Assembly: GCA_020430865.1 (NCBI GenBank)
Contig: JAGQIY010000210.1
Span: 1 to 5,015, forward strand
DNA length: 5,015 bases
Direction of reading: 5' to 3'
Origin: Myxococcales bacterium
GTDB lineage: Bacteria; Myxococcota; Polyangia; Polyangiales; Polyangiaceae
The position numbers and the translations under genes were made by a program. Shown one piece after another: positions 2 to 5,015 of this stretch (position 1 is its first letter; each line of letters starts with the position of its first letter). Under the pieces are notes generated by a model. It saw only the letters and a list, made by a program, of their open reading frames with translations. It ran no database searches and was not told the DNA's origin.

Positions 2-919
2 AAAAGCTGGGTGTGGGATGCCACGCAGCTTCCGACAAACAGTCACTACGTTCCGGTGTTTCTCCGGCTACTCGAGGACCTTGAGCGGGACGCACAAGTA
101 ACCCCGGGCACGCATGTCCTTGTCGAGACGACCACTGGCAACGCAGGAACAGCAGTGGCCTACTTGGCGCGTGAGCTTGGCTATCCCGTCCTTATTTTCA
201 TGCCAGAAGACATGCCAGCAGCACGCATCCAGGATGTCCGGAGCTGCTTGCCGGATGACGGCATCTCCGGGCTCCGCATGACACCCCGCGGCCGGTACGT
301 TCGGGGAGTGGTCACAGCCTTGCGCGATTTCCTCATCGAGCACAAGGATGCGGACTATCAAGGGCGCCAGATTTGCGTGGTAAACCATTCCCGACGTGAG
401 TCGAGCCCGGCCGCTATCGAGAGCTGTGTCACCCGCCTACTGCAGCCCCTGCCCGTGGAAGGGATCATCGACACAGCCGTAGTCGCGCTCGGTAATGGCA
501 CCACTGCCACAGGAATCGCCAGGGCAGTCCGACGTCTCAATCCCGGCGCGCGGGTGGTAGGCATTGAGCCGATCGAAGCACCATGGTTCTATATACAGAA
601 GTACGGCAAGGAAAGATTCCGGCACCTATTTTCCACCGAGCCCGGGCCGCACCCGCACCGCCTCATCGGCACCGGTGGATGGGGTGTCCGCTTCCCCAAC
701 CTAGACTTGGACCTGCTCGACGAGATTGTCCTGGTGACGGAGGATGAGTGGAAGGGCCAACTGTTCCGCCTGCGACAGCGCGGGTTCGAGGTCGGCCACT
801 CGTCCGCAGCGTGCCAGTCGGTGGTGGAACGCCTGGCACTGCTGCACGACGACCGAAGCGATAACTACTTTTCCATGTTCTACGATCCGATCTCGAAGTA
901 CGAGAACGGGCAGAAGTGA
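2..919 (+). CDS. Cysteine synthase/CBS-like fold-type II PLP protein lacking the usual lysine (5' partial)
   Basis: The reading frame is open to the left edge, so the N-terminus (roughly 25-35 residues by comparison with CysK) is missing; the GTG at 11 is probably not the start. Residues are numbered from that GTG. The family is recognisable in order: a substrate/cofactor loop ETTTGNAG at 39-46 (compare E-x-TSGNTG), a phosphate-binding loop GNGTTATG at 161-168 (compare GTGGTxTG), the stretch VVGIEP, the segment EVGHSSAAC at 260-268 (compare GxSSGAA), and a C-terminal FYDPISKYEN (compare PDSGERYLS). In the family these enzymes use a lysine-bound PLP for beta-replacement on serine derivatives. 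Here the block LPTNSHYVP at 7-15 aligns with NPxxSxKDR and has Tyr13 where the Schiff-base lysine belongs, with no other lysine nearby. It may therefore be a pseudoenzyme, a ligand sensor or a scaffold. No signal peptide or membrane segment is seen in the part present; it is probably cytosolic. The stop overlaps the next start (TGATG). The fold assignment is firm; the function is unknown. Confidence 0.88.
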   Translation, partial: KSWVWDATQLPTNSHYVPVFLRLLEDLERDAQVTPGTHVLVETTTGNAGTAVAYLARELGYPVLIFMPEDMPAARIQDVRSCLPDDGISGLRMTPRGRYVRGVVTALRDFLIEHKDADYQGRQICVVNHSRRESSPAAIESCVTRLLQPLPVEGIIDTAVVALGNGTTATGIARAVRRLNPGARVVGIEPIEAPWFYIQKYGKERFRHLFSTEPGPHPHRLIGTGGWGVRFPNLDLDLLDEIVLVTEDEWKGQLFRLRQRGFEVGHSSAACQSVVERLALLHDDRSDNYFSMFYDPISKYENGQK

Positions 920-2724
920 TGTCATCTGAGGAAGGTGTCCGCCTAGTAGAGGCTTATGGTCGTTCCGGTCCGTACGGCGAAGTTCTCGGATGCGTTCTTG
1001 GGGAACTCAAGACCAGGTTCATTTCCCGACAAGTGCAAGGTCTGGCACAACAGCCGAACCACGCGGACCGGATTCTCGCTTGCGCACGCTCTATAAAAGA
1101 ACGGCTCATTCAAGAGCGCGCACGCGCCCTCGCTAACAGGGGGCTGTCCATCACTAGGCTCGTTGATGCGTGGCCTTTGGAGCCCGAGAGTGAACCGGCT
1201 CAAAGAGCGCAACTTGCTGCAGAGCGGTTGGATCAGATCTTGGAATACTTAAACGTGTGCATCATGCACGCAGAGGGCGTGGAAGCGTCCAGGGACCCGC
1301 GCGATCGCCAACTTAGTCTTGCGAAGCTCTACGGAGCGGTTGTGTGGCCCTACTATTTCGTCGCGATCCAGAGCAGCCGCGCGGAATTGTTTCTTGTGAC
1401 CTGGATGCCGCCTGCCACGATGCTAGCGCGGTCATGCTTCGGCACTTGGCCAGACGGCAGCGCAGCTGACGTGCCGTTCTTCCTATACCCAACCGCTGAG
1501 AAGTTGTTTGGATCCTCACCAGTCAGCAACTCCGCGCTGCCTAGTCTCGCAGACGCCTGGCTCGATCTTGGCTACGAAAGTGCGCATGAATCCGAAACGG
1601 AAGCTCGTCGCAACATTGGCCACGTTCAGAGGTATTGGGAGTTGCCGAATGGTTGGGACTACCAAGAGGACTTGGACCAGCGAGTCCGCGGTACGGAACG
1701 TGAAACAACGCTCTTCTCGGATCTGTTTTACGGGAACCGCTCCGCTCTATACATCAACGACGAATCTGCAGAAGACGGGACGCTGGTTGGCCGCCTAGTC
1801 CTGTGTGCTCCCACCAACGGTATATTGTGCGATATCGGCGCCCTTTGGTCAGAAGCGAGTGCCGGCGCTCCTCCCGAGCGGAGCCTGATTGAGGACGTTT
1901 TGCGACGGTGGCAGCGTTTGGGAGGGCCCGGTATCAGCGAGTCACTGCGAAAGAGGCATGAGCGTGTACGCGAGGAGTTGCTGGCCGGCCAAGTGGAAGC
2001 GGACGAAGAGATCCTCCAGAGCTTTATTGCTCACACAGTCCTGGGTCCGGCGGCGGACGCGCTGACATATCTAACGCGTCTCGAGGCCGGCCACAATGCC
2101 GCACAAAACGCGCCGCGACTGCGCAAGAAGCTGAGGACGCTGCTCAGGAACGCACGCTCAGTTCTGGCTCTCTGGAAGGTCTCGCACATGGACGAGGAGG
2201 GTGGGATAGCGGAAATAGACATCCGCACTAGTTGCCTCGACGAGATTGTCGCAGCCATACAGGCTGACCGCGAGAGCATGAACCTGCCGCCACTGCAAGT
2301 GGATCAAGACCTTAACGTGCGGTGTGTGTGTGCCGCAGTTCCCCAAGGCGTCGTACTGCTCTTCACGTTGTTAATCGACAACGCAGTGGAGGAACTCGAT
2401 GCTGTGCACGCAGACGCCGCCCCGGAGTGCCCGACCGCCAAGCTACGGATCGTAACGCGGCCTGTCGAAACACAGTGCGAGATCACCATCAGCAATACTG
2501 CGCGCCCTGAGGCGCGGGAGACATTCAGACGCCTGAACGATGCGGTAGCGGAGCCGATGCCGACGTGGCGGCTTTCCCGCAAGGGCCCCTCGCACTACCG
2601 GCTTGGCCACCGGACAGTAAGGTGGATCGTGCAGGTTCTTCGCGGCCGGATCGCGTACGATGTGTGCGACGACGAATGTGTAGTCCGCTTGTGGCTTCCC
2701 ATGGGAGCGAGAGGTGCGTCATGA
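919..2724 (+). CDS. Soluble histidine-kinase-like protein with divergent ATPase domain
   Basis: This is a 601-residue protein. ATG 919 is preferred because it overlaps the upstream TGA by one base; GTG 916 would add one residue. No Shine-Dalgarno stands out, so coupling to upstream translation is likely. Residues 1 to about 340 match nothing I recognise; they are mixed, with no membrane segment or signal peptide, so the protein should be cytosolic and this part is the presumed sensor. A charged, probably helical linker (about 345-370) leads to a DHp-like helix pair with FIAHTVLGP, where His372 sits in an H-box-like position (compare SHELRTP). A GHKL-like domain follows: LLIDNAVEEL with N-box Asn488, ITISNT at 522-527 where the G1 aspartate motif is expected, HYRLGH at 559-564 in place of GxGLGL, and a final strand ending WLP. 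The cognate partner is probably the receiver protein encoded next. Kinase activity is uncertain because both G boxes are weak; it could be a phosphatase or a non-catalytic sensor. Confidence 0.8.
   Translation: MSSEEGVRLVEAYGRSGPYGEVLGCVLGELKTRFISRQVQGLAQQPNHADRILACARSIKERLIQERARALANRGLSITRLVDAWPLEPESEPAQRAQLAAERLDQILEYLNVCIMHAEGVEASRDPRDRQLSLAKLYGAVVWPYYFVAIQSSRAELFLVTWMPPATMLARSCFGTWPDGSAADVPFFLYPTAEKLFGSSPVSNSALPSLADAWLDLGYESAHESETEARRNIGHVQRYWELPNGWDYQEDLDQRVRGTERETTLFSDLFYGNRSALYINDESAEDGTLVGRLVLCAPTNGILCDIGALWSEASAGAPPERSLIEDVLRRWQRLGGPGISESLRKRHERVREELLAGQVEADEEILQSFIAHTVLGPAADALTYLTRLEAGHNAAQNAPRLRKKLRTLLRNARSVLALWKVSHMDEEGGIAEIDIRTSCLDEIVAAIQADRESMNLPPLQVDQDLNVRCVCAAVPQGVVLLFTLLIDNAVEELDAVHADAAPECPTAKLRIVTRPVETQCEITISNTARPEARETFRRLNDAVAEPMPTWRLSRKGPSHYRLGHRTVRWIVQVLRGRIAYDVCDDECVVRLWLPMGARGAS
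2709..2714 (+). promoter_or_regulatory. Ribosome binding site deciding the response-regulator start
   Basis: GAGAGG lies 6 bases before ATG 2721, inside the end of the upstream coding region. The ATG overlaps the upstream stop as ATGA, and the protein from here begins directly with a receiver-domain first strand (KILIVEDDED). Both points favour 2721 over in-frame upstream starts such as 2565. Confidence 0.65.
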
Positions 2725-4412
2725 TCGAAGAGAAGATCCTCATCGTCGAGGATGACGAGGACCTCCCCGAGCTCTGGAAGGAAGAGCTCGAAGAGGCCGG
2801 GGATCAGTGCACGAAGGTAATCGTGGCGGCGTCCTATTCAGAAGCACTGGAGTACGCAGCAGCTGGAGACATCGCCTACTGCCTTCTCGATCTTGGTCTG
2901 CCTGAACACCGAGGGGAAGATCCTGTTGAGATCCGGGATCCCGATGTCTGCAAGTGGGGCTTCGCCGCGCTCCGAGAAATATCGGCGCAAAACCCGCATG
3001 TTGATGTGGCCATTGTCTCGAGATTTGCTGACCAGCGCGCCGTGACGAAAGTCCAGAGCCGCCTTCTCCGCGAGGGATTGCCTATCAGGCGCATCCTGAA
3101 CAAGAACCTGCACGCAGAAGACGAGTCGTTGGCCGCGGACTGGTACTTGGCGAAGATCAAGGCAGACACTCATGGCCTCGACGACCTTGCGGATACCTTC
3201 CAGCGCCTGGGGTTGCGGGTGGTGCATCCATTGGAGAGGAGGCTTGCTCGAATCCTGTGGCAGAAAGCGGAACCGCGTCGAACCGGACCGCTACCCATCA
3301 TCGTGCTTCGAGGAGAAACAAGAGCGGGTAAGGATAGGTGGGCGGCAGCTTTCGCCGAGTTCCTGAACGACCGCGACCCAAACCAGGATCGAAGACCCGT
3401 CGCGAGGATCGATGTCGGGCACCTTGGGGGGAGGCAGTCTGGAGAAGCGGCGAGGATCGACCTCTTCGGATGTCGCAACTTTCAGAACATGGCCGACGCG
3501 GCTGGTGTCTTCGAGAGGGCGACCGCGTATAGGCGGGCGAACCGATTCGTGCATCAACTGCAACAAGGTGCAGCGGGCGGAGTGCTAGCTCGTAGTGGAG
3601 ATGACGTCGACTACGGCGCGAGCAGCGTTGCGCACTTGGTGGAGTTTGGCAACCTCCCCACGGAGTGCCAGCAGCTCCTGCTTAGCGTGCTGGACAGCAA
3701 CGTAGGAACCGGGGCGACCGTGCAGCCGGCTGGCGGAGGAGGGCTGTCGTTGCCAGTTGGGTGCGCCGTGGTGCTGACGACCAACGCGGACATTGAGAAC
3801 CGGGTCGTCCGTAGCGATAAGCTCGTGGCGGGCGCACTCCGGGAGGATCTTTATCGGAGGTTGAGGAAGGAGCCGGATGGGTGGCTTGAGGTGCCTTCCT
3901 TGCGAGTTATGGGCAGTGATGCGGTCTTCGCGCACCTCCAGCACGCCTTAAACGCGGAGGCGGAACGGCCTGTTACGATCAGGCCAGGGACGAAGCAGCT
4001 GCTCGACGACCTGTGTGAAGAAGGACGGCTGGACATGGAGGGGATCAATACCATCGTCACGGCTTTCGTCCGCTCCGGAGACCGCATGCTGATGACCGAG
4101 CATGTGCGGCCCGCCATGGAGCTGGAATCCACGGTGCTGAAGCCTCATCCACCTGCCAACCGCCCACCCGAGGGCTTTCGCGAGACTATCCAAAGGAAGT
4201 TCAGCGGGAGAAGGCGTGAAGGTCTTCTTGGGCTCCTGAATCACACGGAAGATCCGAATTTCCCGGCTCCCGAATTGGAGTGGACGTACAGCGAAGCCGG
4301 GCAGATCAACAAGCGACTAAAGGAGATGGGCATTCCGCTAGCCGTCCGGAAGGAGCAGGGTGGGAGCTACTATCTAGAAAGAGTGCACACGCGAGAGAGC
4401 ACCGGCAGCTGA
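2721..4412 (+). CDS. Response regulator: receiver, GAFTGA-less AAA+ domain, C-terminal winged-helix-like region
   Basis: This is a 563-residue protein. Residues 5 to about 140 form a receiver: acidic Asp11/Asp12, phospho-acceptor Asp57 (LLDLGLP), Ser100 at the Thr/Ser switch and Lys128, with a longer than usual loop after Asp57 (62-80). Residues about 170-410 resemble the AAA+ domain of NtrC-type sigma-54 activators: Walker A GETRAGKD at 198-205, DLFG at 247-250, GVFERA at 262-267, HLVEFGNLP at 305-313 as Walker B, TTN at 353-355, and ALREDLYRRL at 372-381 (compare FREDLYYRL). The GAFTGA loop that contacts sigma-54 is absent, the Walker B aspartate is Val307 although Glu308 remains, and about 35 extra residues (268-302) precede Walker B. 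No Fis-type helix-turn-helix is seen. Instead residues about 485-555 (TYSEAGQINKRLKEMGI, then GGSYYLE) look like a winged helix ending in a beta-hairpin. It is the likely phosphorylation target of the upstream kinase-like protein, acting as a DNA-binding regulator or effector switch without sigma-54. The domain identities are solid; the output is inferred. Confidence 0.88.
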   Translation: MIEEKILIVEDDEDLPELWKEELEEAGDQCTKVIVAASYSEALEYAAAGDIAYCLLDLGLPEHRGEDPVEIRDPDVCKWGFAALREISAQNPHVDVAIVSRFADQRAVTKVQSRLLREGLPIRRILNKNLHAEDESLAADWYLAKIKADTHGLDDLADTFQRLGLRVVHPLERRLARILWQKAEPRRTGPLPIIVLRGETRAGKDRWAAAFAEFLNDRDPNQDRRPVARIDVGHLGGRQSGEAARIDLFGCRNFQNMADAAGVFERATAYRRANRFVHQLQQGAAGGVLARSGDDVDYGASSVAHLVEFGNLPTECQQLLLSVLDSNVGTGATVQPAGGGGLSLPVGCAVVLTTNADIENRVVRSDKLVAGALREDLYRRLRKEPDGWLEVPSLRVMGSDAVFAHLQHALNAEAERPVTIRPGTKQLLDDLCEEGRLDMEGINTIVTAFVRSGDRMLMTEHVRPAMELESTVLKPHPPANRPPEGFRETIQRKFSGRRREGLLGLLNHTEDPNFPAPELEWTYSEAGQINKRLKEMGIPLAVRKEQGGSYYLERVHTRESTGS

Positions 4413-4824
4413 CAGCGGGCTGCGCGCGGCGCGGCCGCATGGGGCTACCGACGGTGCCAACGGGACGTCGCCGCGACGCTTCGTCGCTGTCCCCCGCGAC
4501 CGCGGACAGGCGGCAACCACTATGGCACAGGGGGGGACATTCTCCACCTGGCCCGTGAACCCCGTGAGGAGTGTCGCTCGTGCGTATCGTAGCGACCAAC
4601 GTACCAACGTCGGAGCCTAGCCATGCCATCTCACTCCCTCACTCCCAGCGGCGTGCGGTGAATAGCAGTGTGTCGGACCGAGAGGTCGATTCGCCCGTGC
4701 CTGCCGATGCCGCGACGCCTGCTCCGGTTGCCGGGCGAGTCCGTGCCAGAAGAGCTGTCACTCACCCTCGCTGCTGCGCTCCTGGCTGCCCTGCGCGACG
4801 GCGGCTCGCTCGGCGGTTTCTCCT

Positions 4825-4876
4825 GAAGGGTTGACGTTCGTCCTCAGCCTGGGTGAAGAACGAAACGCAACCCTTC
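4825..4876. repeat. Imperfect inverted repeat upstream of the small gene at 4894
   Basis: The left arm begins GAAGGGTTG (4825-4833) and the right arm ends CAACCCTTC (4868-4876), giving 9 perfect base pairs. Pairing continues inward with CGTT-CGT on the left against ACGAAACG on the right, with small bulges. The arms are separated by roughly 16-20 bases. A TTGACG at 4831-4836 in the left arm could be a -35 element, but the hexamer 17 bases later (TGAAGA) is a poor -10, so a promoter is only a suggestion. The structure lies in the probable leader of the next gene and could act as an operator, a leader hairpin, or a terminator-like stem for the upstream operon; it lacks a T-run. Confidence 0.55.
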
Positions 4877-4880
4877 AAAC

Positions 4881-4886
4881 AAGGAG
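4881..4886 (+). promoter_or_regulatory. Strong Shine-Dalgarno for the small gene
   Basis: AAGGAG sits 7 bases before ATG 4894 in an A-rich context. It fixes the start and suggests efficient independent translation, unlike the weak or overlapping signals inside the operon. Confidence 0.8.
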
Positions 4887-4893
4887 AAACAAC

Positions 4894-5015
4894 ATGGCAC
4901 AGACGAAACAACCCATCGACAAGATTCGACTCGGCCGCATCACCGCGACCATCTGGGAGAACGAGGGCAAGAACGGCGCCTTCTACAACGTGGTCACCAC
5001 GCGGACCTACCGCGA
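4894..5015 (+). CDS. Small conserved hypothetical protein, N-terminal 40 residues (3' partial)
   Basis: The frame runs off the right edge after 40 complete codons. The translation starts MAQTKQPIDKIRLGRI and continues with ATIWENEG and an AFYNVVTTRTYR-like strand. The pattern of a basic N-terminus followed by IRxGxIxATIWxNEGxNGxFYNV resembles a family of short (often under 100 residues) uncharacterised proteins that I recall from many phyla, frequently on plasmids or integrative elements. That recollection could not be checked here. The alternating hydrophobic residues suggest a beta-rich fold; no signal peptide is seen. A strong ribosome binding site and its own inverted-repeat leader indicate it is not part of the upstream three-gene operon. 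The function is unknown. Confidence 0.8.
   Translation, partial: MAQTKQPIDKIRLGRITATIWENEGKNGAFYNVVTTRTYR

Follow-up and report, generated by a model that had tools for sequence, protein, structure and literature searches.

What would a cysteine synthase-like protein do when its gene runs into those of a kinase and a response regulator? A contig of a Myxococcales bacterium (GenBank assembly GCA_020430865.1, contig JAGQIY010000210.1) raises this question. The whole 5,015-nucleotide stretch that we analyzed, read on its forward strand, is called the window here. Its three main genes, g1, g2 and g3, encode in this order a protein with the fold of the pyridoxal 5'-phosphate (PLP)-dependent enzymes of the PALP family, a histidine kinase-like protein that is probably soluble, and a protein with a receiver and an NtrC-like AAA+ domain. 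An earlier note, made from the letters of this DNA, had proposed that three such proteins are encoded together by overlapping genes on one strand. Both overlaps were present in the sequence (Table 1), and the protein families, the overlaps and one probable co-occurrence elsewhere supported the grouping. Homologue searches found near-full-length homologues for each of g1, g2 and g3, which argues that the three are genes and more than chance reading frames. The answer that we tentatively favor, with somewhat less than even confidence, is that the locus encodes a cytosolic sensing module with co-translated parts, where a ligand-binding pseudoenzyme feeds a two-component pair in the cytosol, and that this module is tied in relatives to sodium-coupled uptake.

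The g1 protein matched Pfam PF00291 (PALP) with an E value of 3.4e-24 (86.1 bits against a cut-off of 35). Cut by the window edge, it is without the first 43 residues relative to its homologue P0011, and Tyr16 of g1 corresponds to Tyr59 of P0011. This tyrosine stands where the catalytic Schiff-base lysine would be. In the alignment, the position was tyrosine, within a His-Tyr pair, in 37/37 clade rows and lysine in 25/25 outgroup rows. The clade rows were the best 36 of the 57 proteins from the g1 homologue search plus the genomic relative L002 (see below), and the outgroup rows were 4 genome loci and 21 search hits. In the tree of these 62 rows, a branch with support 99/97 separated the 37 clade rows from all others, and 100% of the 200 bootstrap trees contained it.

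Conservation of glycine-rich loops is common to all PALP proteins. The 31-row core alignment had 38 invariant columns, of which 20 fell within the 43 columns that we assigned to pocket loops (Fisher p=1e-9), an assignment based on aligned motifs and CysK anatomy. His58, Tyr59, His172, Ser173, Trp270 and Cys314 were invariant in 31/31 rows, as was the phosphate loop GNGT. Among all 37 clade rows, the G-N-G of the phosphate loop was kept in 36 and the asparagine of the Asn loop in 30, the remaining seven having Ser or Thr. Judged from the alignment, this conservation shows that the g1 pocket has not decayed, and it says nothing of what the pocket binds. Like the CysK/OASS family (PF00291, TIGR01139), g1 has a fold-type II PALP domain, an Asn loop, a phosphate loop and a C-terminal Ser/Thr-rich loop. 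It differs from that family in the replacement of the Schiff-base lysine by tyrosine and in a score far under the cysK cut-off (72.4 bits against TIGR01139, cut-off 350.95, for a g1 query without 43 residues). By alignment and tree, g1 belongs to a single PALP-fold clade with an invariant Lys-to-Tyr replacement and strongly conserved pocket loops.

We then analyzed g3. Pfam matched the protein to Response_reg (PF00072; 33.8 bits, cut-off 30.2) and Sigma54_activat (PF00158; 23.6 bits, cut-off 20.2), and Foldseek and VIA-align grouped its structure model with NtrC-family receiver-AAA+ proteins. The homologue search found 8 proteins, about 36-97% identical to g3, and the 9-row alignment takes in one 97% copy. 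Receiver residues Asp57 and Lys128 were invariant in 9/9 rows, so the receiver is intact, as the earlier note had claimed. Gly-Lys of Walker A and Glu of Walker B were also present in 9/9 rows. The Walker B Asp was lost in 8/9 rows and kept only in P0006, and the GAFTGA loop was absent, by eye, from all nine. P0007-P0010 form a g3-like receiver-AAA+ group, 36-37% identical to g3 and also without GAFTGA, on contigs of up to 82 kb.

Thus g3 has the receiver and AAA+ domains of NtrC-family response regulators and differs from them in the missing GAFTGA loop and in the loss of the Walker B Asp in most rows. Pfam detected no Fis-type DNA-binding domain in it. TyrR, HupR and VpsR are NtrC-family homologues without an intact GAFTGA, and such homologues are argued not to be sigma-54 activators (PMC3162934). 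The g3 model was fair up to residue 468. Residues 469-563 had predicted local distance difference test (pLDDT) values under 50 and the last 143 amino acids had no Pfam match at E 10, so the winged helix that had been proposed for g3 found no support.

For g2, the homologue search found 2 proteins. One, P0001, is the window's own record and identical to part of g2; the other was P0002, with 39% identity over 99%. There was no Pfam match for g2 itself, including none to HisKA and none to SSF; P0002 matched HATPase_c_5 with 20.2 bits, slightly short of the cut-off of 22. By eye, the motif FIAHTVxGPAADAL was present in 2/2 full-length sequences (g2 and P0002), its His followed by Pro at +5, and an N-box-like stretch with NAVEEL was present in both. 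A DxGxG box was not seen in the comparison of g2 and P0002 by eye. In the hydropathy plot, the sole hydrophobic stretch of g2 comprised 5 windows from about residue 469; since this stretch adjoins the N-box and has no counterpart in P0002, g2 is probably soluble. Taken together, we consider it likely, but not proven, that g2 is a histidine kinase. The earlier note had also held that each of the three proteins altered a hallmark of its family. This is strongly borne out for g1 by the Lys-to-Tyr replacement, and in part for g2 and g3, which keep the DHp-like His and N-box-like Asn and the Walker A motif and Walker B Glu, respectively.

Does the trio occur elsewhere? P0014 (a relative of g1), P0002 (of g2) and P0004 (of g3) were each listed on one contig of 36,320 bases, with identities to the window of 73%, 39% and 51%, respectively. 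Taking these records as one contig, the trio probably recurs once. Two further clade relatives were found in metagenome-assembled genomes (MAGs), L001 in a Planctomycetota MAG and L002 in a Sphingomonadales MAG. In both, and thus in two different phyla, an SSF-family symporter gene lay directly upstream of the PALP gene (Table 1), the L002 PALP start at 1652 being inferred from the alignment of P0045. The best NCBIfam model of both symporters was PutP, below its cut-off (262.2 bits for L001 and 246.1 for L002 versus 515.5), and the two symporters were 33% identical to each other. The sequence upstream of g1 lies outside the window, and the symporter is seen only in the relatives.

The neighborhoods of the two loci were inspected further. 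In L001, ORF 3389-3835 (ORF, open reading frame) begins 7 bases after the PALP gene and runs off the contig. Its N-terminus weakly resembles P0002, and as a g2 relative it gave only weak values (BLASTP E 0.004 against P0002; hhalign probability 3.6). Shuffled sequences reached its score in 1/1000 cases against the first 160 amino acids of P0002 and in 110/1000 against those of g2. The ORF was not accepted as a g2 relative. Our own impression that L001 ORF 151-900 encodes a ProC-type Rossmann protein was dropped for want of a supporting match in Pfam or NCBIfam. In L002, the ORFs after the PALP gene encode a thioesterase-family protein, an SSB-like ORF product, an integrase and a carboxypeptidase. 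A transposase remnant (2-241) lies before the L002 symporter-PALP pair, and a phage-type integrase gene (3657-4919) after it.

The sensing module is favored because of the Lys-to-Tyr replacement across the whole clade and its absence from the outgroup, the well-supported branch, the pocket-loop invariance and the overlapping frames. It is favored also because of the co-listing on the 36,320-base contig, the invariance of Asp57 and Lys128 in g3, and the overlapping upstream symporter in two phyla. In such a module, g1 would no longer carry out lysine-based PLP catalysis, and its old active site would bind a small ligand, either an amino acid or an amino acid-PLP adduct. Ligand occupancy of g1 would control the soluble kinase g2, which would phosphorylate Asp57 of g3, and g3, as an AAA+ oligomer, would act on something other than sigma-54 RNA polymerase. 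In the two related genomes, the ligand may arrive in part by way of the PutP-like sodium symporter, whose gene directly precedes that of the PALP protein.

Signalling by non-catalytic fold-type II proteins is known to us only from scattered cases (CYSL-1 and plant TSB-like proteins). CYSL-1 of Caenorhabditis elegans resembles the proposed g1 in being a CysK homologue that no longer has biosynthetic activity and has a signalling role as a partner that regulates EGL-9 (PMC5562914). A non-catalytic TSB-like protein activates TSA and appears from PMC12727527 to be changed at residues other than the lysine. On the transporter side, PMC7096432, PMC13022988 and PMC7918813 describe CbrA as a transporter plus kinase, and PMC7918813 and PMC7096432 associate an SSS transporter with a kinase and an NtrC-type regulator in CbrA/CbrB and other SLC5/STAC systems. 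Taken together, the window and its relatives share with these systems a transporter, a likely kinase and an NtrC-type regulator, the symporter here being that of the relatives. They differ in that g2 is probably soluble and carries no transporter part, in that a gene of its own, found in relatives only, encodes the symporter, and in that a PALP protein is added.

Several results weigh against the sensing module. The AlphaFold model of g2 had a pLDDT of 37 and was unusable, so the DHp and GHKL parts of g2 rest on motifs and one below-cut-off match. Six of the g1 clusters among P0012-P0020 had a longest contig that reached 4.7 kb or more; of these contigs, only the length listed for P0014 came up again in the g2 and g3 searches, which scored only about 8,000 candidates each. 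Of the six close g1 relatives on such contigs, five were without a detected g2 or g3 relative, against one probable recurrence of the trio. The longest contigs listed for P0013-P0017 and P0021 measured 8.7, 36, 16, 4.8, 7.4 and 227 kb, respectively. There was no two-component gene beside the clade gene on the 6.4-kb contig of L002. The L001 and L002 genomes had no g2 match at E 0.01, and g3 gave only generic AAA+ matches in them; MAGs can be incomplete. In addition, the moonlighting partners of CysK bind by a C-terminal peptide, ending in Ile in EGL-9 (PMC5562914), and this C-terminal Ile is absent in g2 (ending -GAS) and g3 (ending -TGS). We rejected the tail-in-active-site mechanism of CysK partners for this locus, as neither g2, g3 nor any of the nine relatives P0002-P0010 has a C-terminal Ile. 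The cluster counts and the two MAG loci speak against strict linkage of the three genes.

On the other hand, the locus could be part of an uptake or metabolic operon, in which the PALP protein and a symporter handle amino acids and the two-component pair only controls operon expression, with no contact between g1 and g2. The PutP-like symporter gene directly upstream with a 4-base overlap in both L001 and L002 would fit such an operon, as would the symporter and PALP genes of L002 having no two-component genes beside them and the higher conservation of g1 than of g2 or g3 in the relative on the 36-kb contig. However, the symporter is known from relatives alone, and the g1/g2 stop/start overlap fits matched production better than simple co-regulation, without being proof. 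We regard this operon as rather unlikely.

Alternatively, g1 could be an active enzyme with altered chemistry, holding PLP or an adduct without lysine, using His-Tyr catalysis or running a PLP-independent reaction, whose product is the kinase signal. The residues invariant in 31/31 rows, together with the GNGT loop, exceed what an inert scaffold needs, which speaks for such an enzyme. However, there is no evident substitute for the lysine, and we know of no lysine-free fold-type II enzyme. We consider this possibility unlikely. The earlier note had raised conflict responses as a possible role. That the trio is an anti-phage or similar conflict system, with the receiver-AAA+ protein as its switch, is highly improbable. 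Rarity and a downstream ORF resembling one on mobilizable Planctomycetes plasmids could be cited for it. Against it, PADLOC 2.0 gave only weak matches to parts of g3 (22 bits to RtcR_PspF2 in the AAA+ part; the receiver matched PDC-M60B at 13.8 bits), none of the four ORFs scanned had a Pfam domain of a nuclease, of a protease or of another effector-like kind, and no relatives were confirmed in viral contigs. Beyond rarity and a possible mobile setting, nothing positive supports defence.

Table 1. Features of the window and the symporter genes of two relatives (symporter positions are those of L001 and L002)
Feature	Position	Strand	Description
g1	2..919	+	PALP-fold (cysteine synthase-like) protein without Schiff-base lysine; open at left edge of window
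Tyr codon TAC at catalytic-lysine position of g1	47..49	+	SHY motif; His-Tyr in clade rows, Lys in outgroup rows
g1/g2 stop/start overlap	917..921	+	TGATG, read in sequence
g2	919..2724	+	ATG at 919; 601 amino acids; probably soluble, histidine kinase-like; DHp-like and GHKL-like parts follow a long N-terminal region with no assigned fold
H-box-like FIAHT of g2	2023..2037	+	Candidate phospho-acceptor His372; motif by eye
N-box-like IDNAVEEL of g2	2374..2397	+	Asn488; motif by eye
g3/g2 start/stop overlap	2721..2724	+	ATGA, read in sequence
g3	2721..4412	+	563 amino acids; receiver and NtrC-like AAA+; GAFTGA loop missing; C-terminal ~95 amino acids with no assigned fold
Receiver Asp57 of g3	2889..2891	+	Invariant in 9/9 rows
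Receiver Lys128 of g3	3102..3104	+	Invariant in 9/9 rows
Walker A GETRAGKD of g3	3312..3335	+	Gly-Lys in 9/9 rows
Walker B region LVEFGNL of g3	3636..3656	+	Asp lost, Glu308 kept
Fourth ORF	4894-5013		ATG taken at 4894; open at right edge of window
L001 symporter gene	926-2341		PutP-like SSF; 4-base stop/start overlap with PALP gene at 2338-2341
L002 symporter gene	282-1655		PutP-like SSF; 4-base overlap with PALP gene at 1652-1655

To survey the distribution of the clade, genome contigs (84,980 species, each with a single genome) were scanned with the g1 alignment by three peptide patterns, a scan that is not exhaustive. It returned 7 loci, 2 of them in the clade (L001 and L002; one in the core clade and one in the wider clade), and g3 alone as the query returned no loci from genome contigs. 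In whole-genome samples, 1/392 genomes of the L001 phylum and 1/23 of the L001 order were positive, as was 1/296 of the L002 order with the L002 protein as the query; each was only the genome already known. A g3 relative was found in 0/392 genomes of the L001 phylum, and the sister-PALP alignment matched 0/396 and 0/395 genomes in two other phyla, with no positive control among the genomes in either case. Taken together, these surveys point to rarity.

Among plasmids, there were no relatives of P0011 (E 1e-20), P0002 (E 1e-5), g3 (E 1e-12) or P0045 (E 1e-20), and P0042 as the query matched one protein annotated as cysM, with 28.4% identity. No relatives were confirmed in viral contigs with the g1, g2, g3 or sister-PALP alignments. 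Two Staphylococcus phage records (OR849900.1, 4873-5490; OR845007.1, 32558-33175) carry a weak, unannotated PALP-like stretch with 28.6% identity, which may be host sequence.

The fourth ORF of the window (4894-5013) showed 55% identity over 40 amino acids to hypothetical proteins on plasmids of the Planctomycetes bacteria Pla133 and Pla86. Both plasmids are typed as mobilizable, and in pPla133_1 the relative of this ORF lies near mobC and a relaxase gene. The plasmid match is a hint of the host group and of a mobile setting, and nothing more. A strong hairpin at 4815-4896 lies directly before the ORF (DNA z -6.4, RNA z -5.3; 0/200 shuffles as stable), and its outer stem pairs with the Shine-Dalgarno-like stretch AAGGAGAAA. 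The plasmid relative has ACAAGGAGAA-CA-CATGGC before the ORF in common with the window and no significant fold there (z -0.8). No promoter-like or terminator-like sites were found in 4300-5015, and no Rfam families across the window; the window also holds 13 short families of direct repeats.

In its widest form, the proposal would make the lysine-less pseudoenzyme the ligand sensor of a soluble kinase, a "split transceptor" coupling PutP-like amino-acid uptake to a sigma-54-independent receiver-AAA+ regulator and travelling on mobile elements of uncultured bacteria, and hence an undescribed class of two-component system. As a whole, we judge this version unlikely. Among the open-licence papers listed in our searches, we found no described system joining all three proteins, as the earlier note had supposed, and no description of a lysine-less clade co-translated with a two-component pair; the individual parts are diverged members of known families.

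The trio has the look of a rare sensing module, and a former enzyme may have taken up a signalling role in it. In a bacterial clade where the Lys-to-Tyr replacement is fixed, the pocket conserved and a two-component pair co-translated, the turn of an enzyme fold into a sensor would be tractable. Such a clade would also lend itself to testing how separate proteins, namely transporters, ligand-binding pseudoenzymes and kinases, are coupled to one another.

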